From Daejeonella lutea (GTDB lineage: Bacteria; Bacteroidota; Bacteroidia; Sphingobacteriales; Sphingobacteriaceae): a stretch of 64,000 bases of DNA. A program made the translations under genes and the position numbers. The notes beneath the pieces are model-generated. The model made no database searches. It saw only the letters and a program-made list of their open reading frames with translations, and had not been told where the DNA came from. The stretch is taken from contig NZ_FUYR01000002.1 in the NCBI RefSeq assembly GCF_900168015.1, positions 124,001 to 188,000 on the forward strand. Direction: 5' to 3'. Below are positions 3,386-13,963 of this stretch, piece after piece. Positions within the stretch are counted from its first letter, which is position 1. Each line of letters begins with the position of its first letter.

Positions 3386-3748
3386 TTATTTATTTAAAAC
3401 GCTCGCTACAATCTTTTCCAACTCTTCGATATCAAATGGCTTGGCAAGAAAGTTATCGGCACCCGCAACCCGCGCCAATGCTTTAACATCATTGTTTGCA
3501 GAGAAATAAATGATTGGAATTTTGCTTAAAGAAGGAGTGCTTTTAATTGCTTGAGTAGCTTTTATACCTCCCATATCCGGAATCCAGTTATCCATCAGGA
3601 TAATGTCCGGCATAATTTCTTCAACCGTTTCGACTATATTTTTGCAATGGTTTCGGGTATGGACATTCCATCCATTTTCTTCAAGTATATACGTACAGAT
3701 GGACAGTATATCCTCATCATCATCACAAATTAATATCTTCTTATCCAT
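3386..3748 (-). CDS. single-domain response regulator (CheY-like receiver)
   Basis: A 120-residue receiver with no output domain. The acidic triplet DDD is at residues 9-11, the phospho-acceptor Asp53 is in LMDNW, the switch residue is Ser83 (YFSAN) and the conserved Lys103 is in LAKPF. No histidine kinase lies beside it, so it is probably fed by a kinase elsewhere and acts through protein contact. It resembles the stand-alone receiver at 30141-30500 in ending with an AKPFDI segment, suggesting a paralogous group. Confidence 0.92.
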   Translation of the reverse strand: MDKKILICDDDEDILSICTYILEENGWNVHTRNHCKNIVETVEEIMPDIILMDNWIPDMGGIKATQAIKSTPSLSKIPIIYFSANNDVKALARVAGADNFLAKPFDIEELEKIVASVLNK

Positions 3749-6905: not shown

Positions 6906-9137
6906 TTATTTATAAACAGCAATTTCGTCGCAGAACAGCCAACTTTTACGGTTTGGAAATGCACGCCATTTCGGAAGTTCCTCAAGGTTTCTGGCTCGTA
7001 ATTTAACGTACCGGCCCTGCAACTTCTTAGAGAAATTGATAGTGTAGCGATGGGTTTCTGTGCTGTACACCTCTTCAGGGGCAGCGAGATTTAAACTCCC
7101 TGCCTGGTGATAGTTAGTATCGTCAACGGAAATTTCTACACTCAGATTCAATGGCAGGAAAGACCAGTGTCTTTGATCTTCAAGAAAGCCTGCTGAAAGC
7201 GAACCGACTTCCATCACCTTGCCCAAGTCAATAATAACCTCCATATCGGTACCATACCAGCCAAGGTAATTATATTGGAAACTATTATAACCCGGGCTTC
7301 CGTCTGTTAATCCCTTTGTTCCCTTGCCGGGATATTCCACACTAAATGGAATAACCGCTTTGACATCAGCACCGAGTGCTTCATGGATAATTGGTCCCTG
7401 ACGAAAAATACCATCCCATTCTTTAGCGTATGTATCCAGGGTGTGCCCCCCCTCTGCAAGAACTTTGACTCCCGCCCTCCCGGCAGCTTCCAGGAAACGC
7501 TGCACTTTATTTTTAAAGCCCGGTCTAACCGACCACTCATCCCCCGAACGGATAAATAGGCCGTGCCTTTCCAAACCGTAAAACCTTGCTTGTTGTATCA
7601 CAGCATACTCCAGCGCAAGCCTTTCTGCTTCCACATTTTCAGCAAATGGAGTTCTGCTACCAGCTGCTTTTGATGCGTCGTCCAGGATGTCAGAATATCG
7701 ATCGATTCGTTCCGGTGAAAGCCAGCTATTCCATTCTATGACGGGGTCGCCATAAATATCCAGCAAACGACCACTTTTTGTAAGCTCCTTATTCAATTCG
7801 TCGATGTAACGCAAAATGTGTTGCCCGGCCTCACCGTAATATGCCTTAATAAAATCCTCAAAATGAACCTTATTGTCAACTTTGGGCGCCCAAGAAGCCT
7901 TCGCAAGAAGATAAGTCTTCAGGGCGGAAAATTCCCCTCGGCTGCCCTCCGTTCCTTGCACAAATATCCCCCTGACATTATTATCAGCAAAAAATTTCAT
8001 GTTTTCATCCAGATAATGCAGATTGGGAAATGGGCTCTGATAATTTGTGTATTGAACCACATAATCCCACACCATTAATGTTCCTGTGATTGCCGACCAG
8101 CTCCTGACACTGTTTCTAAATAACGCTGCGCGCGGATTACTGGAAATCGGCTTTGCCCGATCCAAGCTTATTGATGAGAGCATCACACTGACATTTGCCG
8201 CAGGCTTTAAATTAACCGGTGGCAGGGCACTGTAGAGATATGCCAGTGTGGAGATAGTTTTATCAGGAAATTTTGCCGCAACCTTGTTTGCAAAATTTAT
8301 GACAGATCCCTGCGGTCCGCCGTACCTCTTATCGATAGCTTCGCATTTAGAACAGGTACAATACCCCAAACCATCATTCTGGCTTACCGACCAGAGCTTT
8401 TTGTCGGGCTCCTCCAGGATAAGTTTACGCAGATTTCCGGTTAGAATACTAAGTACCTCAGGATTACTTAAACATAACTGTGTATCAGTTCGCTGCCCGT
8501 TTACAAGGGCAAAGTATTCGGGCTTAGTTTTAAAATACTGGTTAGGAGAAACCAGCTTAAAAAAGGTATGACCCCATAAGCCGAACTCATCCTCAAGTGT
8601 GTGTAATTTATGCCAATCACGGAACTCTTCATCATATTGATCCGGATAATAAACTGACCGAAATGATAATACAGGATTTTGGATATCGGATATCGCGGGA
8701 AGACTTATCGACGACTTTTTAGGTACAAATTTGAGAACTGCTGTAAACTTCCGGCAATCCAGATAATTCTCCAGAAAATGGTAGACGCCATACAAAACGC
8801 TTTTACCATCCCCGCCATATATAAGTAATTTCGTATTTCGGGTCTTGATGACAAATCCTTCGTTTGTTAACTTCTCAGTACCTGAGCCGCGATTTGTTTT
8901 TCCAATACAGAGCTCGTTGTCTGCGCGTGCATTACCATCAGTAACAATCGGAAGGCTGGCACCAGAAATATCTTTAATATAGGATTGAAGTACTCTCGAT
9001 GCTTTTTGCTCAAAGCTAGTTGCGCTTTCAGGAATTACAATCTTATAAGATGATCGTGCATCTGATACAAGAACAAGCTGTGAACTGGCAGTAAGCCTCA
9101 TTGTAATAAGAAATACAATCGTTAAAAAATATTTCAA
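6906..9137 (-). CDS. secreted DUF4838 glycosidase-like protein
   Basis: A 743-residue protein with an N-terminal signal peptide (about 1-19). Residues about 25-135 resemble the alpha-glucuronidase/GH20 N-terminal domain (SFEQKASRVLQSYIKDISG, LLIYGGDGKSVLYGVYHFLE). Next is the DUF4838 catalytic-like region (about 190-450), with the cysteine pattern YCTCSKCEAID and YVVQYTNYQSPFPN. The last 120 residues look like a discoidin-type carbohydrate-binding domain (DMEVIIDLGKVMEVGSLSAG). It starts 6 bases after the YaiO-type gene and closes the run beginning at 13680. Position suggests a role in trimming or modifying the exported polysaccharide, as PgaB does in pga loci; this role is inference. Confidence 0.85.
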   Translation of the reverse strand: MKYFLTIVFLITMRLTASSQLVLVSDARSSYKIVIPESATSFEQKASRVLQSYIKDISGASLPIVTDGNARADNELCIGKTNRGSGTEKLTNEGFVIKTRNTKLLIYGGDGKSVLYGVYHFLENYLDCRKFTAVLKFVPKKSSISLPAISDIQNPVLSFRSVYYPDQYDEEFRDWHKLHTLEDEFGLWGHTFFKLVSPNQYFKTKPEYFALVNGQRTDTQLCLSNPEVLSILTGNLRKLILEEPDKKLWSVSQNDGLGYCTCSKCEAIDKRYGGPQGSVINFANKVAAKFPDKTISTLAYLYSALPPVNLKPAANVSVMLSSISLDRAKPISSNPRAALFRNSVRSWSAITGTLMVWDYVVQYTNYQSPFPNLHYLDENMKFFADNNVRGIFVQGTEGSRGEFSALKTYLLAKASWAPKVDNKVHFEDFIKAYYGEAGQHILRYIDELNKELTKSGRLLDIYGDPVIEWNSWLSPERIDRYSDILDDASKAAGSRTPFAENVEAERLALEYAVIQQARFYGLERHGLFIRSGDEWSVRPGFKNKVQRFLEAAGRAGVKVLAEGGHTLDTYAKEWDGIFRQGPIIHEALGADVKAVIPFSVEYPGKGTKGLTDGSPGYNSFQYNYLGWYGTDMEVIIDLGKVMEVGSLSAGFLEDQRHWSFLPLNLSVEISVDDTNYHQAGSLNLAAPEEVYSTETHRYTINFSKKLQGRYVKLRARNLEELPKWRAFPNRKSWLFCDEIAVYK

Positions 9138-9143
9138 GTTGCA

Positions 9144-10709
9144 TTAGAATTTGTGCTGGAAAGATACGGAAACATCGAATTCGTTACGCGTCTTTCCTGG
9201 TGTATATTCCTGTTTATTCCATGTCCCGAATAGGCCCAAAATACCTCGGCGGAGCACAGTCTTCTGATAACCCAGAGTAAATCGCAAGGATTCGAGAGTG
9301 ACCCGGTCCAGAAAGTCAAAGTTTCGGGCTACATCTTCGGGAGAAAAACCATATCCCGCAATAGCGGTTAGATAGTCGTCAGAATTATCGTTAAAGTAAT
9401 ATCGGTTTGTGAAGATGTAAGACCCTACCAATTTTCCGTTGCTGGCCGTTTGAAATGTCTTTATGTTTGCCCAATATTTATTAAAATACTTTCCCACCGC
9501 ACCGGTAAAACCTTTGAAGTCTGAATCTGCATTCAAATACCTGATACCAATTTCTGATTCCCAACTTTTGCTTAATGGGAAGAAATAAGAATATGAGAAT
9601 TTTATTTTGGGGAAAACAAATGAATCTGAAAAGGCCAGGTTAACGAAGGAATAGGTTTTTCCATGCTTCGGATAAGCCTCCAATTCGAATTGGTACCCCT
9701 TACGATTAACCCTGTCGGCATAGTTAATTCGTCCCAGCATTGAGATTCCTTTTTCCTGGCGCATATAAAACAAACTATACAATGCCCAGGGGTTTCGTTC
9801 GGGCTGATCAAACATCGTGACTGAAGTACTCAACCCTATCCTATTCTGACGGCTGAGCAGAAAAGTTTCATCGCGTATCGCGACAATTTGACTAGTAGAT
9901 GTATTTGCTTTCACTAATGAATCTGCCAGCAAATATGCTTCCCTCATATCTCCTTCTAATTGTAAAAGAGAAAGTTTTTTGGTAAAAATTGAAGCATTAT
10001 TCGTGTAAAAATTCAGACCAGAATCAATCAATTTTCCAGCCGAGTGATAATCTTTCCTTTCCAGGTTAATGTTTATTGCAAGATTTCTGGCCACAGTGTC
10101 TGCCGGGTCAACTCGTAATATATCTTCATAGCTGAGCAGTGCCTTTGCAGTGTCTCCTTTGCTCATCAGATATTTACCCTCTGAAAATCTGATATCCTTA
10201 TATAAGTAAATAAAATTTGTATCGACGGGATTATTTGTCAGAAGAGAACCCGCAATCCAGACAGCTTCATCATACCTTCCCATTGTTTTTAGCAGATCTG
10301 CTTTTTTTACCCTTATCTCCCCTGACGAACCTGCTCGCTCAATCGCGTCTGCATACTTTAGGGCATCGTCATTTCTGCCTAAACGAACGCTCAGGTTGAA
10401 AAGAGCGTTTAACGCTTCCATGTTGCCTGCGTGTTTTGCCAGCACCTTGCTATACTCAGCGATGCCTTCTTCATCCCTACCACTTAATACATAAATCCTT
10501 CCCAATAGAAGACGAATATCTGTGTAATCCGGACTAATTGCCAGGGCTGATTGCGCCAGAGCTATTGCGCGGGGATAATTTTTGTTAATGTTTGTTTCAT
10601 CGAGGGCCTGTTTAAAAAGTTCATCGGAAGATATTGCCTGCGCAAATGATGAAAAATTTATAATAAGGCAGAAGCCTATGGTGAGTATGTATAACAATCG
10701 TTGACGCAT
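9144..10709 (-). CDS. TPR protein with C-terminal YaiO-type outer-membrane beta-barrel
   Basis: A 521-residue protein with a signal peptide (about 1-23) and four to six TPR-like helical hairpins (about 25-270: YPRAIALAQSALAISPDY, NMEALNALFNLSVRLGRNDDA and others). The C-terminal barrel (about 290-521) has alternating aromatic strands and ends in SVSFQHKF, a typical outer-membrane C-terminal phenylalanine. TPR plus barrel is the architecture of PgaA/BcsC-type polysaccharide exporters. The YaiO-type barrel and its place 6 bases after the GT2 synthase suggest it carries the polymer across the outer membrane. The export role is inferred from context. Confidence 0.85.
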   Translation of the reverse strand: MRQRLLYILTIGFCLIINFSSFAQAISSDELFKQALDETNINKNYPRAIALAQSALAISPDYTDIRLLLGRIYVLSGRDEEGIAEYSKVLAKHAGNMEALNALFNLSVRLGRNDDALKYADAIERAGSSGEIRVKKADLLKTMGRYDEAVWIAGSLLTNNPVDTNFIYLYKDIRFSEGKYLMSKGDTAKALLSYEDILRVDPADTVARNLAININLERKDYHSAGKLIDSGLNFYTNNASIFTKKLSLLQLEGDMREAYLLADSLVKANTSTSQIVAIRDETFLLSRQNRIGLSTSVTMFDQPERNPWALYSLFYMRQEKGISMLGRINYADRVNRKGYQFELEAYPKHGKTYSFVNLAFSDSFVFPKIKFSYSYFFPLSKSWESEIGIRYLNADSDFKGFTGAVGKYFNKYWANIKTFQTASNGKLVGSYIFTNRYYFNDNSDDYLTAIAGYGFSPEDVARNFDFLDRVTLESLRFTLGYQKTVLRRGILGLFGTWNKQEYTPGKTRNEFDVSVSFQHKF

Positions 10710-10715
10710 CTTTTC

Positions 10716-12155
10716 TTAATCTATAGCAACTTTTTTCTTTTTAAATCCAATTCTTGTCATCTCACCCCAGTTAAGCTTCCGGTTGGAAAAGAAGTAAAAG
10801 TTACCGCGCAGGGAGAAAAAAAGTACAAGGGGGTGATAAACAAATGGCTCTACAATTGCTGCAAGGCATAGCTTAAATACCTCCCTTTTCTTTTCATACT
10901 TCATTCCTGCCACTTCGTCCCAAAGAATGGCCATTATTGTGATCATCACAGAAAAAGAATAAACAAATGCAAGCAGGATCAACGCATAAATCCATGTGAT
11001 CTGTCCTGTAATTGCCAGGTATATATAAAATATTATCCCACCGGCTTCAATTAATGGTGCAAGCCACTCAAAGAATACCCAATAGGGAAATGTAAGCAGA
11101 CCAAAAACTTTATATTTCGGGTTAAAAAATACCTTTCGATGAATCCATAGGGTTTGAGCCAGCCCCTTAGTCCAGCGGGTCCTTTGCCTGGCGAATATTC
11201 TTAACGAAGAAGGGACTTCTGTCCAGCACAGCGACTCTGGGATATAGGTAACAAGGTATTTTTCCTTATGATCTTCCATCCACACTCTCATCCTGCCAAT
11301 TAGCTCCATATCCTCACCAAATGATTTATGATCATACCCTCCAGCAGATAATACAACTTCTTTGTCAAACAAGCCAATTCCTCCCGAAACCAGCATTAAG
11401 CCATTGATTTTGCTCCACGCCATTCTTCCGAGTAAGAAGGCGCGAATGTATTCCAGCTCCTGGAACAGTGGGAGAAACTTATTAGGGACCTTTACCTTTT
11501 TGAGATATCCATTTTCGACTTCGCATGAGTTAGAAATACGGATTACCGAACCAGTTGCAATAACCCGGGTTTTCTCCTCCACGAATGGCCTCACCATCTT
11601 GATAAGCGTATCTTTATGAAGAATACAATCCATATCTGTGCAGAGGAACAACGGATATGACGAAGCATTGATCCCTGCATTGGACGCATCAGCCTTGCTT
11701 TTTCCATTGTGTTTATCAATAACTATGAGTTTTGAATAAACCGGGTTCTTTGATTTGTAGATACCTTTGACAGGCTGTGTCTTAATTTCTTCATGATAGT
11801 AGTAGCTACTCTCGGCAAGTTCATACTCGTCTATCAGCTTTTGAAGCGTATCGTCAGTACTTCCATCGTTAACAATAATAACTTCATACTTAGGGTAATT
11901 AAGCGACAGCAAGGTGTGGACGCCATTGATTACAGTTCCAGATTCATTAAATGCGGGTGCTATCACCGAAATGCCAGGTACGTGCTGAGAGTTCAGCAAA
12001 GCTGAATGATTAATGTACCAGCAGCGAAGGTTATACTTTCTTATCTCAATTACGCTCAGTATTACAAGCGTGAGGTAGCTGAACATTATAAGGACACTAT
12101 AGTAAAATATAGCCTGTTCAAAAATAAGGCTTATCCAAATGCTTAGAGTGTCCAT
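10716..12155 (-). CDS. processive family 2 glycosyltransferase (PgaC/BcsA-like polysaccharide synthase)
   Basis: A 479-residue inner-membrane synthase with one or two N-terminal TM helices (about 12-38) and three or more at the C-terminus (about 345-450). The GT-A domain carries the full processive set: nucleotide-binding NDGSTDD (about 96-102), DxD as DMD 174-176, the GED acid at 280-282 and QRTRW at 324-328. Such enzymes polymerise a sugar nucleotide and pass the chain through the membrane. The sugar is not evident; similarity to poly-N-acetylglucosamine synthases is the nearest guess. It starts 1 base after the HEAT gene. Confidence 0.9.
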   Translation of the reverse strand: MDTLSIWISLIFEQAIFYYSVLIMFSYLTLVILSVIEIRKYNLRCWYINHSALLNSQHVPGISVIAPAFNESGTVINGVHTLLSLNYPKYEVIIVNDGSTDDTLQKLIDEYELAESSYYYHEEIKTQPVKGIYKSKNPVYSKLIVIDKHNGKSKADASNAGINASSYPLFLCTDMDCILHKDTLIKMVRPFVEEKTRVIATGSVIRISNSCEVENGYLKKVKVPNKFLPLFQELEYIRAFLLGRMAWSKINGLMLVSGGIGLFDKEVVLSAGGYDHKSFGEDMELIGRMRVWMEDHKEKYLVTYIPESLCWTEVPSSLRIFARQRTRWTKGLAQTLWIHRKVFFNPKYKVFGLLTFPYWVFFEWLAPLIEAGGIIFYIYLAITGQITWIYALILLAFVYSFSVMITIMAILWDEVAGMKYEKKREVFKLCLAAIVEPFVYHPLVLFFSLRGNFYFFSNRKLNWGEMTRIGFKKKKVAID

Positions 12156-12156
12156 G

Positions 12157-13275
12157 TTAATTTAGCGCTTCAGTAAAATGATTGATAAGGCCTTTTTGGA
12201 CGGCATGCTCCTCCTGGAGTTCATTTTTTACCTCATACGCCACAACGGGTGGGTGTGAAGTGATGGCTGCTGCTGCACTTTTTATGATCAGGAAATCTTC
12301 GGCCTCCATGAATTTCTGCCTGATAAAGTCAACAGAATTCCCACTTGCAATTAAACCAAGCGAAATCAAAATTGCCGCCTTGTTTTTAACTGGCTCAAGT
12401 TGGTAACGATTACGTAAACTGGATTCGGCTTCTTCTGCATTTAATGCCCCCAGGGCTTCAATAATTCGGAGCCTTATAAAATCATCCTGGGCGTTAATAA
12501 CCGCCAGCAATTCCTGGATAGCGTCCAATTGCCTGTAATCAACAATGAGTTTGATACCCAAGAGCACCAGACTGCGATTTTCCGACCTCAGAAAGGTTTT
12601 GAAGCTTGGAATTGTTAAACCAATTGTATTAAAGATCCCCTCGACCAGCATCATTTGCTGCCATTCGCTCAGCTCTTCCCTTTCTTTCGACATCACCTCG
12701 AAACAATCACGCGCACGCAACCTGACTAATGCTATATAGGAAGCCACCCTGACATCCTGATTTTTATCATTAACCAATTTATACACCTCTAAAAGTGACA
12801 TTACGTCCTTCATTCGCTGCACTTCCGTTAGTCCCTGCGTTTTCAAAAACCATAAGGGGCTTTGAAGCTTCTTAAGACTGAATTGCCGAAGTTTAAGCCG
12901 GGAATAGGTTGCATTCACGATTCGACCTACCGATCCTGTTAGATTCGTTTGAAAATAGACCAGCAGTCTGATCATGGATTTCCGGAAAATCTTGTTCTTG
13001 TTTTTTAGAACATCCAGAATCGACAAAGTTTTACTCAACTCTTTTTCTGAAATGTCTGATACAGAATCGTATATAAAAATCCGTTCGCCTAAGGTTTCAA
13101 GAATTGCCTCATCGGCCATCTTCTGAATTTTCTGCCGTCTTTTTTTAATCACCCGGTTGACAAATATGACAGCGATTGTGCAAAATGTCAATATTGCTGA
13201 GATAATTGCCACGAATGCGGCGAAACGGATAATCTCAGGATAATTATGATTAACTACGGCATTTAATTGGTTCAT
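12157..13275 (-). CDS. membrane-anchored HEAT-repeat protein
   Basis: A 372-residue protein with one N-terminal TM helix (about 17-39), a basic KKRRQK stop-transfer, and then a cytoplasmic domain of tandem helical pairs (about 150-350), including DVRVASYIALVRLRARD and DFIRLRIIEALGALNAEEA, typical HEAT units. It has no enzyme motif. Between a receiver and a polysaccharide synthase it may scaffold or regulate the synthase, perhaps linking the receiver to the membrane complex. That role is inference. Confidence 0.82.
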   Translation of the reverse strand: MNQLNAVVNHNYPEIIRFAAFVAIISAILTFCTIAVIFVNRVIKKRRQKIQKMADEAILETLGERIFIYDSVSDISEKELSKTLSILDVLKNKNKIFRKSMIRLLVYFQTNLTGSVGRIVNATYSRLKLRQFSLKKLQSPLWFLKTQGLTEVQRMKDVMSLLEVYKLVNDKNQDVRVASYIALVRLRARDCFEVMSKEREELSEWQQMMLVEGIFNTIGLTIPSFKTFLRSENRSLVLLGIKLIVDYRQLDAIQELLAVINAQDDFIRLRIIEALGALNAEEAESSLRNRYQLEPVKNKAAILISLGLIASGNSVDFIRQKFMEAEDFLIIKSAAAAITSHPPVVAYEVKNELQEEHAVQKGLINHFTEALN

Positions 13276-13296
13276 TTGAGAGCTTTTTCGGTTACC

Positions 13297-13680
13297 TTAA
13301 GCCGCGGTGAGGTCCGATAGAATGAATTGCTTTAGTTTGGCAACAACGACATTCAATGAGAATGGTTTAACTATATAATCTTTAACCCCAGCTTCCAGTA
13401 CATCCACAACCAATTCATCTGATGCCAGGGCTGTAAGGACAAAAATGGGTGTTTCACTGTTATGCCTAGTTTTCTTTAACTCTGCGATCAATTCAAGCCC
13501 TGCAATATTGGGGACCATTATATCGGCTAGAATTATATCGTATTTTTTTAATTGAGCCTTCCTTAATGCACTGATACCGTCCAGCGCCTTATCAACTTTA
13601 AATCCCTCTTTCGTTAATCTTGATTCTAATAATTTGTTTATTAATAATTCATGATCTACTATTAAAACTTTATTTTTCAT
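13297..13680 (-). CDS. single-domain response regulator heading the exopolysaccharide gene run
   Basis: A 127-residue receiver. The acidic pocket is VDHE (residues 8-11), with histidine in place of one of the usual Asp/Glu pair. The phospho-acceptor is Asp53 (LADIMVP), the switch residue is Thr83 and Lys105 is in VKPFS. It has no output domain. It is first in a five-gene minus-strand run with gaps of 21, 1, 6 and 6 bases, so it may control the polysaccharide machinery post-translationally. Confidence 0.9.
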   Translation of the reverse strand: MKNKVLIVDHELLINKLLESRLTKEGFKVDKALDGISALRKAQLKKYDIILADIMVPNIAGLELIAELKKTRHNSETPIFVLTALASDELVVDVLEAGVKDYIVKPFSLNVVVAKLKQFILSDLTAA

Positions 13681-13913
13681 AATACCCTCTTATCCTTTCG
13701 ATAGCTGTCTTATTCCCTTATAAGTTTTTATGCTATGTAATACCCTTAACGCAATTGGTGTGCCTCAATGAAACTTCATCCCCGTAACCGAGGACGAAAG
13801 GTTAAACATTTAAGTTTTAGAGCCTGATTATCAAATGCCTAGCAAGTTGGATAAAAATTATAATTGTAAGTAAATAAAGGTCCAATTGGGAAATTATATA
13901 GGCCTATGTGCCC

Positions 13914-13949
13914 TAAAAAAAGCCCGGCAAAAATAGATTGCCGGGCTTA
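13914..13949 (-). terminator. rho-independent terminator after the OmpA-like gene
   Basis: Arms AAGCCCGGCAA (13920-13930) and TTGCCGGGCTT (13938-13948) pair perfectly around a 7-base loop, and the minus-strand transcript then runs into seven T. It lies 15 bases past the stop of the gene at 13964-14830. Confidence 0.9.
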
Positions 13950-13963
13950 AAGCTCGTGTGGAA

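Follow-up and report, generated by a model that had tools for sequence, protein, structure and literature searches.

Introduction

How is a matrix polysaccharide switched on and off in bacteria that do without cyclic di-GMP (c-di-GMP)? Such control is, to our knowledge, poorly known. The question is raised by five adjacent genes of Daejeonella lutea, found in a 64,000-nucleotide stretch of its genome (assembly GCF_900168015.1, contig NZ_FUYR01000002.1, forward strand 124,001–188,000), which we call the window and whose own numbering is used throughout. The genes encode a single-domain receiver (REC), a membrane-anchored HEAT-repeat protein, a processive family-2 glycosyltransferase (GT2), a protein combining tetratricopeptide repeats (TPRs) with a YaiO-type barrel, and a DUF4838 protein. 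In processive GT2 systems, the synthase both polymerises and translocates the chain, which TPRs guide to a barrel and which is trimmed by an enzyme in the periplasm or at the cell surface. The cellulose (bcs) system, for example, has BcsC as TPR-barrel exporter, BcsZ as periplasmic glycosidase and BcsG as an enzyme of the alkaline phosphatase superfamily; in PgaCD of Escherichia coli, part of the pga system, c-di-GMP is bound directly by the synthase. An earlier note on the D. lutea DNA had proposed an equivalent system, with the receiver and HEAT protein in place of the usual c-di-GMP-binding part and the DUF4838 protein in place of PgaB.

Surveying Bacteroidota genomes, we find that nearly every synthase of this kind is paired with a membrane HEAT protein, and most also with a dedicated receiver; this pairing is the new element. 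From the parts and their conservation we infer polymer synthesis and export, and a signal path from receiver to HEAT protein to GT2. On balance, the locus is probably a synthase-dependent exopolysaccharide system in which the receiver switches the synthase through the HEAT protein, and these two proteins are likely its control parts. We found no description of the gene set among the open-access full texts listed, although one may have been missed; in the main text of an operon survey (PMC7112194), a search for the terms 'Bacteroid', 'HEAT' and 'YaiO' gave no occurrence.

The five proteins of the locus

The five open reading frames (ORFs) occupy positions 6906–13680, all on the minus strand, and an ORF check returned the order and the intergenic gaps (21, 1, 6 and 6 bp) that had been reported for them. 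At their centre lies the GT2 gene (10716..12155, 479 aa; Pfam Glycos_transf_2, 69 bits), the predicted polymer synthase, which belongs to a subfamily of its own. The polymerase motifs noted earlier are present as DMD (174–176), GED (280–282) and QRTRW (324–328), and D174, D176, D282, Q324, R325 and W328 are each conserved in at least 127 of 128 homologues. The protein has the D,DxD,(T/G)ED,QxxRW pattern and the membrane helices of a processive synthase. Its best NCBIfam match is PgaC/IcaA at 118.3 bits, so far under the equivalog cut-off of 422.3 that it is not a PgaC; the CelA match is weaker still (31.5 bits against a cut-off of 699.1), and Pfam finds no MshEN domain in it.

The next gene downstream (9144..10709) encodes the likely exporter, a 521-aa protein with a signal-peptide-like start, TPRs and a C-terminal YaiO outer-membrane β-barrel (PF19413, 153.4 bits, cut-off 23.9; TIGR04390, 112.3 bits, cut-off 32). 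An outer-membrane barrel with TPRs is encoded alongside the synthase, as in synthase-dependent systems, and would serve in export. Upstream of the GT2 gene stands that of the HEAT protein (12157..13275, 372 aa; HEAT_2, 31.9 bits, cut-off 27.7), preceded by the receiver gene (13297..13680, 127 aa; Response_reg, 88 bits), whose product has the phospho-acceptor D53 and K105 and is without an output domain. The run ends with the DUF4838 gene (6906..9137, 743 aa from a TTG start), which encodes a glycoside-hydrolase-like protein with a signal-peptide-like start and a C-terminal F5/8-type domain. Taken as predicted from their sequences, these parts support the assignment to a synthase-dependent exopolysaccharide type of locus.

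In the HEAT protein, residues 21–39 are strongly predicted as a transmembrane segment. They precede a run rich in lysine and arginine, so that under the positive-inside rule the HEAT repeats would lie in the cytoplasm. A second hydrophobic stretch (300–318) is barely above threshold and lies inside the modelled solenoid; the AlphaFold2 model has a mean pLDDT (predicted local distance difference test score) of 91. The protein is thus predicted to be a cytoplasmic α-solenoid anchored by a single N-terminal transmembrane helix. In two other loci (L008:690-2330 and L062:7009-8889), the HEAT protein has an N-terminal stretch similar to SPOR, a peptidoglycan-binding domain, scoring 17.4 and 17.0 bits, below the cut-off of 21; if real, it could tie the synthase to the cell wall.

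Conservation across the Bacteroidota

Our sample comprised 395 Bacteroidota genomes. The HEAT protein search gave matches in 70 of them (E 1e-3), the GT2 search in 145 (E 1e-20) and the YaiO search in 93. GT2 scores fall into two ranges, one of at least 250 bits (107 genes in 94 genomes), which we take as the subfamily, and one that, among the matches listed, runs from 133 bits downward. Subfamily GT2 and YaiO occur together in 92 genomes, GT2 alone in 2, YaiO alone in 1 and neither in 300 (Fisher p = 7e-87, a statistic that ignores kinship). Of the 98 YaiO genes, 85 have a subfamily GT2 gene within 10 kb, and 12 of the other 13 are in genomes with such a GT2 elsewhere in the assembly. Close relatives carry the system only patchily, with a GT2 match at E 1e-80 in 65 of the 201 genomes of the window's own family.

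For the neighbourhoods, the window and 105 fetched stretches, which together hold all 107 subfamily GT2 genes, were joined by 23 loci from named genomes, among them Pedobacter, Draconibacterium and Maribellus. The latter and the G-labelled loci come from overlapping databases and may hold the same species twice; the counts over 395 genomes are unaffected. With profiles built from the loci themselves, a HEAT gene was found directly upstream of the GT2 gene on the same strand in 125 of 129 cases, separated in 113 of the 125 by no more than 30 bp and most commonly by a 4-bp overlap. Gene calling took the longest non-overlapping ORFs and thereby lost the HEAT genes of L139 and L163 and the GT2 gene of L148; a stop-to-stop rescan added these three loci (L163 weakly, at 33 bits) and brought the count to 128 of 130. 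The two remaining are L024, where the GT2 gene is cut by the contig end, and L164, where it is broken. A YaiO gene is present in the fetched stretch in 99 of 129 cases. Around 15 lower-scoring GT2 genes examined as a control, chosen among the matches listed, there was no HEAT-family gene and no YaiO gene (0/15 each). By these phylum-wide counts, the five-gene arrangement is not due to chance. The earlier note had set as tests that the gene order should recur in other Bacteroidota and that the barrel should lie near a GT2 in other genomes; the order is conserved far beyond close relatives, and the barrel is found there as well. One large phylum thus offers a defined gene set of wide conservation, with control parts that are identifiable and open to testing individually. 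For the YaiO barrel family, the GT2 is a consistent partner within the phylum, which points to a likely role.

Among fetched-locus proteins matching two of our seven profiles, there were no receiver–HEAT or HEAT–GT2 fusions, which would have spoken for direct contact; the only fusions were of GT2 with a sulfatase domain (n = 13). In G517, G522, G462 and G457, a partial second GT2 match (query residues ~191–475, in a frame of ~530–556 aa) lies near the full one and looks like a tandem duplication of part of the synthase. The control loci are arranged differently, with a protein of some 1000 aa, in the single case examined composed of TPRs, adjacent to the GT2; in L165-L175 and L177-L179, this pair is joined by two or three further genes and often by a long receiver-bearing protein, which is possibly another exopolysaccharide system.

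A receiver lineage that travels with the locus

A receiver domain is encoded in line upstream in 92 of 129 cases, as a short receiver in 85 and within a longer protein in 7, and a short receiver lies within 9.5 kb of the GT2 gene in 94 of 129. Among the 103 short receivers of the fetched stretches, a set that includes the window's own two times and a few that do not belong to the locus, the phospho-acceptor aspartate (D53 position) is kept in 98 and the switch lysine (K105) in 100. In a tree, a single branch (support of 88 in the Shimodaira–Hasegawa-like approximate likelihood ratio test, SH-aLRT) separates 84 locus receivers from 29 other receivers; a quicker tree needed two changes instead of one. 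All 29 outsiders come from the window's genome, being 28 of the 30 best-scoring among its 74 receiver matches together with another lone receiver gene of the window (3386–3748), which is thereby placed outside the locus lineage. With only 125 columns and outsiders from one genome, the tree shows shared lineage and not age. The locus receivers share a common lineage that travels with the locus.

Receiver-bearing proteins longer than 400 aa are encoded on the same strand within six genes upstream in 31 of 128 cases. Six of them were run against Pfam and all are hybrid histidine kinases; four of the long proteins have the architecture REC-GGDEF-REC (L114 by Pfam; L139, L145 and L147 by local profiles). 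Genes of about 254 and about 325 aa occupy the usual position of the receiver in some lineages.

c-di-GMP genes in carriers and deep lineages

GGDEF domains are encoded in 203 of the 395 genomes and in 29 of the 94 carriers of the subfamily, leaving 65 carriers without one. PilZ was found in none of the 57 carriers tested, the window's genome included (0/57), and within this set GGDEF occurs in 0 of 38 genomes of the window's class versus 10 of 19 outside it. The window's genome gave neither a GGDEF nor a PilZ match. These absences fit a receiver and HEAT protein that would take the place of the c-di-GMP part, but a simple swap does not hold: there are deep members of the family in which the HEAT protein occurs together with diguanylate cyclase domains.

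Seventeen fetched loci hold a GGDEF protein. PAS/GAF-GGDEF-EAL proteins are encoded upstream in L116, L118 and L154 (Pfam), and in L116 and L118 the HEAT protein is found with both the GGDEF-EAL protein and a receiver. A CHASE3-GAF-GGDEF protein is encoded downstream in L158 (Pfam), with kin recognised by profile. In L114, L139, L145 and L147, the REC-GGDEF-REC protein replaces the receiver; the GGDEF signature is degenerate in all four and intact in the other 13 GGDEF loci, and each of these four genomes has one GGDEF match in total. Both modes of control appear to exist among the relatives for one and the same synthase.

When a GT2 tree is rooted on the control GT2s, all 15 rows that have a GGDEF protein at the locus lie in deep branches (families f14, f36, f44 and f18). 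The remaining group of 111 rows (support 86) has no locus GGDEF; in 92 of its rows there is a short receiver within 6 kb, in 18 there is none, and one is a misplaced control, L176. This control has a very long branch within the family, probably owing to the use of no more than the first 520 residues of a longer protein, and was kept. The tree does not include L148 and L164, two further loci with GGDEF proteins. It comes from a single FastTree run, has long branches and gives its key fork moderate support, so that a direction of change can only be suggested: the loss of c-di-GMP signalling in derived Bacteroidota may have left them with the machine and the receiver, and REC-GGDEF-REC with its degenerate motif is a possible intermediate in one lineage.

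Variable accessory enzymes

The DUF4838 domain (PF16126) is recognised with 316.9 bits against a cut-off of 26.6. In the same protein, a GH67 N-terminal domain is barely over its cut-off (25.1 vs 24.3) and an F5/8 type C domain lies under it in Pfam (23.0 vs 28.2). A profile search of solved structures gave a firm match for the C-terminal F5/8C region only, to the C-terminal part of the β-hexosaminidase 6q63; weak matches (E 0.09–0.25) were to α-glucuronidases, hexosaminidases and a β-galactosidase. All 15 sequences compared share D255, D358 and E562, and a structure model made from three input sequences was too poor for a fold search (mean pLDDT 52). The GH67-N and hexosaminidase-type matches suggest a glycosidase, and the protein would then be an accessory polymer-processing enzyme. 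The gene is found in 16 GT2 rows (15 loci), always in the order HEAT–GT2–YaiO–DUF4838, and is a variable accessory of the system. The window's genome has a second DUF4838 gene (L210:9041-11353, contig C10), more than 1 Mb from the subfamily GT2 genes of that contig.

A gene resembling lipoteichoic acid (LTA) synthase is present in the fetched stretch in 42 of 129 cases, 13 of them as GT2 fusions; three of these proteins were checked by Pfam and NCBIfam and the others are local-profile calls. Such enzymes suggest that the polymer of those lineages carries phosphate-linked groups. Four rows (3 loci) have both DUF4838 and an LTA-synthase-like gene, and 75 of 129 have neither, so that the DUF4838 protein is no general counterpart of PgaB. 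The analogy is reasonable for the position of the gene but not for the kind of protein, and it fails for the system as a whole. A further family, without assigned function, of about 390 aa or more and with a hydrophobic N-terminal start, is encoded in 17 of 129 cases (L059:12586-13746, L088:6511-7698, L117:12362-13531 and 14 more loci), in 4 of which neither YaiO nor an LTA-synthase-like gene is present; three members gave no Pfam match, and one gave no NCBIfam match.

Comparison with known systems

The bcs system resembles the locus in having a GT2, a TPR-barrel exporter (BcsC) and a periplasmic glycosidase (BcsZ), and the alkaline-phosphatase-superfamily enzymes of some loci recall BcsG; it differs in its synthase, given the low CelA score, and in that PilZ is missing from the carriers tested. 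The pga system of E. coli (PgaABCD), which makes poly-N-acetylglucosamine (PNAG; compare PMC9384988 and PMC5933820), likewise has a processive GT2, periplasmic TPRs with an outer-membrane barrel and a secreted polymer-processing enzyme. Here, however, the GT2 scores 118 bits where PgaC requires 422, Pfam finds no PgaB-type polysaccharide deacetylase domain in the five proteins of the window, and no PgaD-like gene was recognised; the run has a receiver and a HEAT protein, and DUF4838 stands in the position of PgaB in some loci only. In E. coli NfrBA (PMC8669469), an inner-membrane glycosyltransferase with QxxRW and a TPR-rich outer-membrane partner are encoded in one operon with a dedicated regulatory input, the synthase NfrB binds c-di-GMP directly, and NfrBA is locally c-di-GMP-controlled. 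The NfrBA synthase carries an MshEN c-di-GMP-binding domain, in contrast to the window GT2, beside which a separate HEAT protein and a receiver are encoded.

In the E. coli yaiO-yaiP-yaiS region, a YaiO barrel gene lies near genes for a putative glycosyltransferase (YaiP) and a putative deacetylase (YaiS), but no receiver or HEAT gene is annotated there, and YaiO, at 257 aa, is judged by its length too short for a TPR part. YaiP proved only a remote homologue of the GT2 (38.5 bits, 23% over 247 columns), and E. coli YaiO has no significant BLAST similarity to the window barrel, the two sharing only the Pfam family.

A model and its alternatives

In the model we favour, the inner-membrane GT2 would polymerise a sugar nucleotide and move the growing chain into the periplasm, from where the TPRs and the YaiO barrel would conduct it through the outer membrane, and the secreted DUF4838 protein would trim or release the polymer. 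The HEAT protein, held beside the GT2 by its one-helix anchor, would be a near-obligate partner subunit. A histidine kinase, encoded nearby in some relatives, would phosphorylate the single-domain receiver, which may then dock on the cytoplasmic HEAT solenoid and turn the neighbouring GT2 on or off.

Synthesis and export could also proceed in this way with the HEAT protein acting solely as an assembly scaffold, for instance as a link between synthase and envelope, and with the receiver acting elsewhere and gating nothing. The HEAT protein is indeed near-universal with the GT2 and the receiver less so (125 against 92 of 129), and the two SPOR-like stretches, sub-threshold as they are, would suit such a role. 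Yet the receivers are one lineage that travels with the locus, they mostly retain the phospho-acceptor, and they usually stand in line upstream of the HEAT gene, and we regard a pure scaffold as less likely. A polysaccharide-degradation or protein/lipid-glycosylation cluster, in which the GT2 would add sugars to another acceptor and the DUF4838 protein would degrade foreign glycans, would fit the glycosidase-like make-up of the latter and the second DUF4838 gene elsewhere in the genome; it is very improbable given the lock-step of a QxxRW-type GT2 with a TPR-barrel family and the confinement of DUF4838 to 15 loci. A shade less probable again is that c-di-GMP still controls the synthase through direct binding to the GT2 or the HEAT protein, as in NfrB and PgaCD, with the receiver as a side input. 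GGDEF or GGDEF-EAL proteins do occur at the locus in deep lineages, and a GGDEF domain is encoded at some place in the genome of 29 of 94 carriers, but the other 65 have none, the locus GGDEF motif is degenerate in all four loci of one deep lineage, and the lack of GGDEF and PilZ matches already makes such control unlikely in the window's genome.

Switching by the receiver through the HEAT protein must itself be set against a number of observations that weigh against it. An in-line upstream receiver domain is missing in 37 of 129 cases, some of which have a downstream receiver and others none in the fetched stretch; the receiver is therefore not obligate. In 30 of 129 cases, the fetched stretch holds no YaiO gene, and no kinase is present among the nine window proteins run against Pfam. 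The 50 matches listed by Foldseek for the HEAT model are alphaRep, armadillo and other solenoid proteins, so that no partner can be read from the fold. The HEAT profile also picked an unrelated protein in L013, a 1140-aa match beside a receiver that proved a false lead, since it joins HEAT repeats to a 3-keto-disaccharide hydrolase domain; together with the weak calls in L163 (33 bits) and L157 (24.5 bits), it indicates that remote HEAT proteins may not be true homologues. Nor does the GT2 tree tell a tidy story: a short receiver within 6 kb is lacking in 18 of the 111 derived rows and also in L157 and L163, the two rows at the deepest fork, which have no GGDEF protein at the locus either. Only tentatively, then, do we extend receiver-to-HEAT switching to a phylum-wide synthase under direct two-component control, with phosphorylation of a dedicated free-standing receiver acting through a membrane HEAT adaptor.

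Genomic setting and a second copy

On the 5' side of the five genes lie an OmpA-type gene, with a terminator-like hairpin, and then an esterase gene (Pfam). The intergenic stretch 5' of the receiver gene (13681..13963, minus strand), the presumed promoter region, holds the hairpin (13948–13920); its position between the OmpA gene and the receiver gene suggests that the five genes plausibly form a transcript of their own, although the hairpin alone is no proof, as the terminator scan found 10 sites in total against 8.3 expected. A Bacteroidota-type promoter consensus was not found in 13681..13963.

A second copy of the module is present on another contig of the same genome (L059, C10:459700-479600). 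It consists of a receiver, a HEAT protein, a GT2 fusion, a 386-aa protein without assigned family and YaiO, the last two being encoded on the strand opposite to the other module genes. The fusion protein (8954–12589, 1211 aa) joins the GT2 to a sulfatase/LTA-synthase-like domain.

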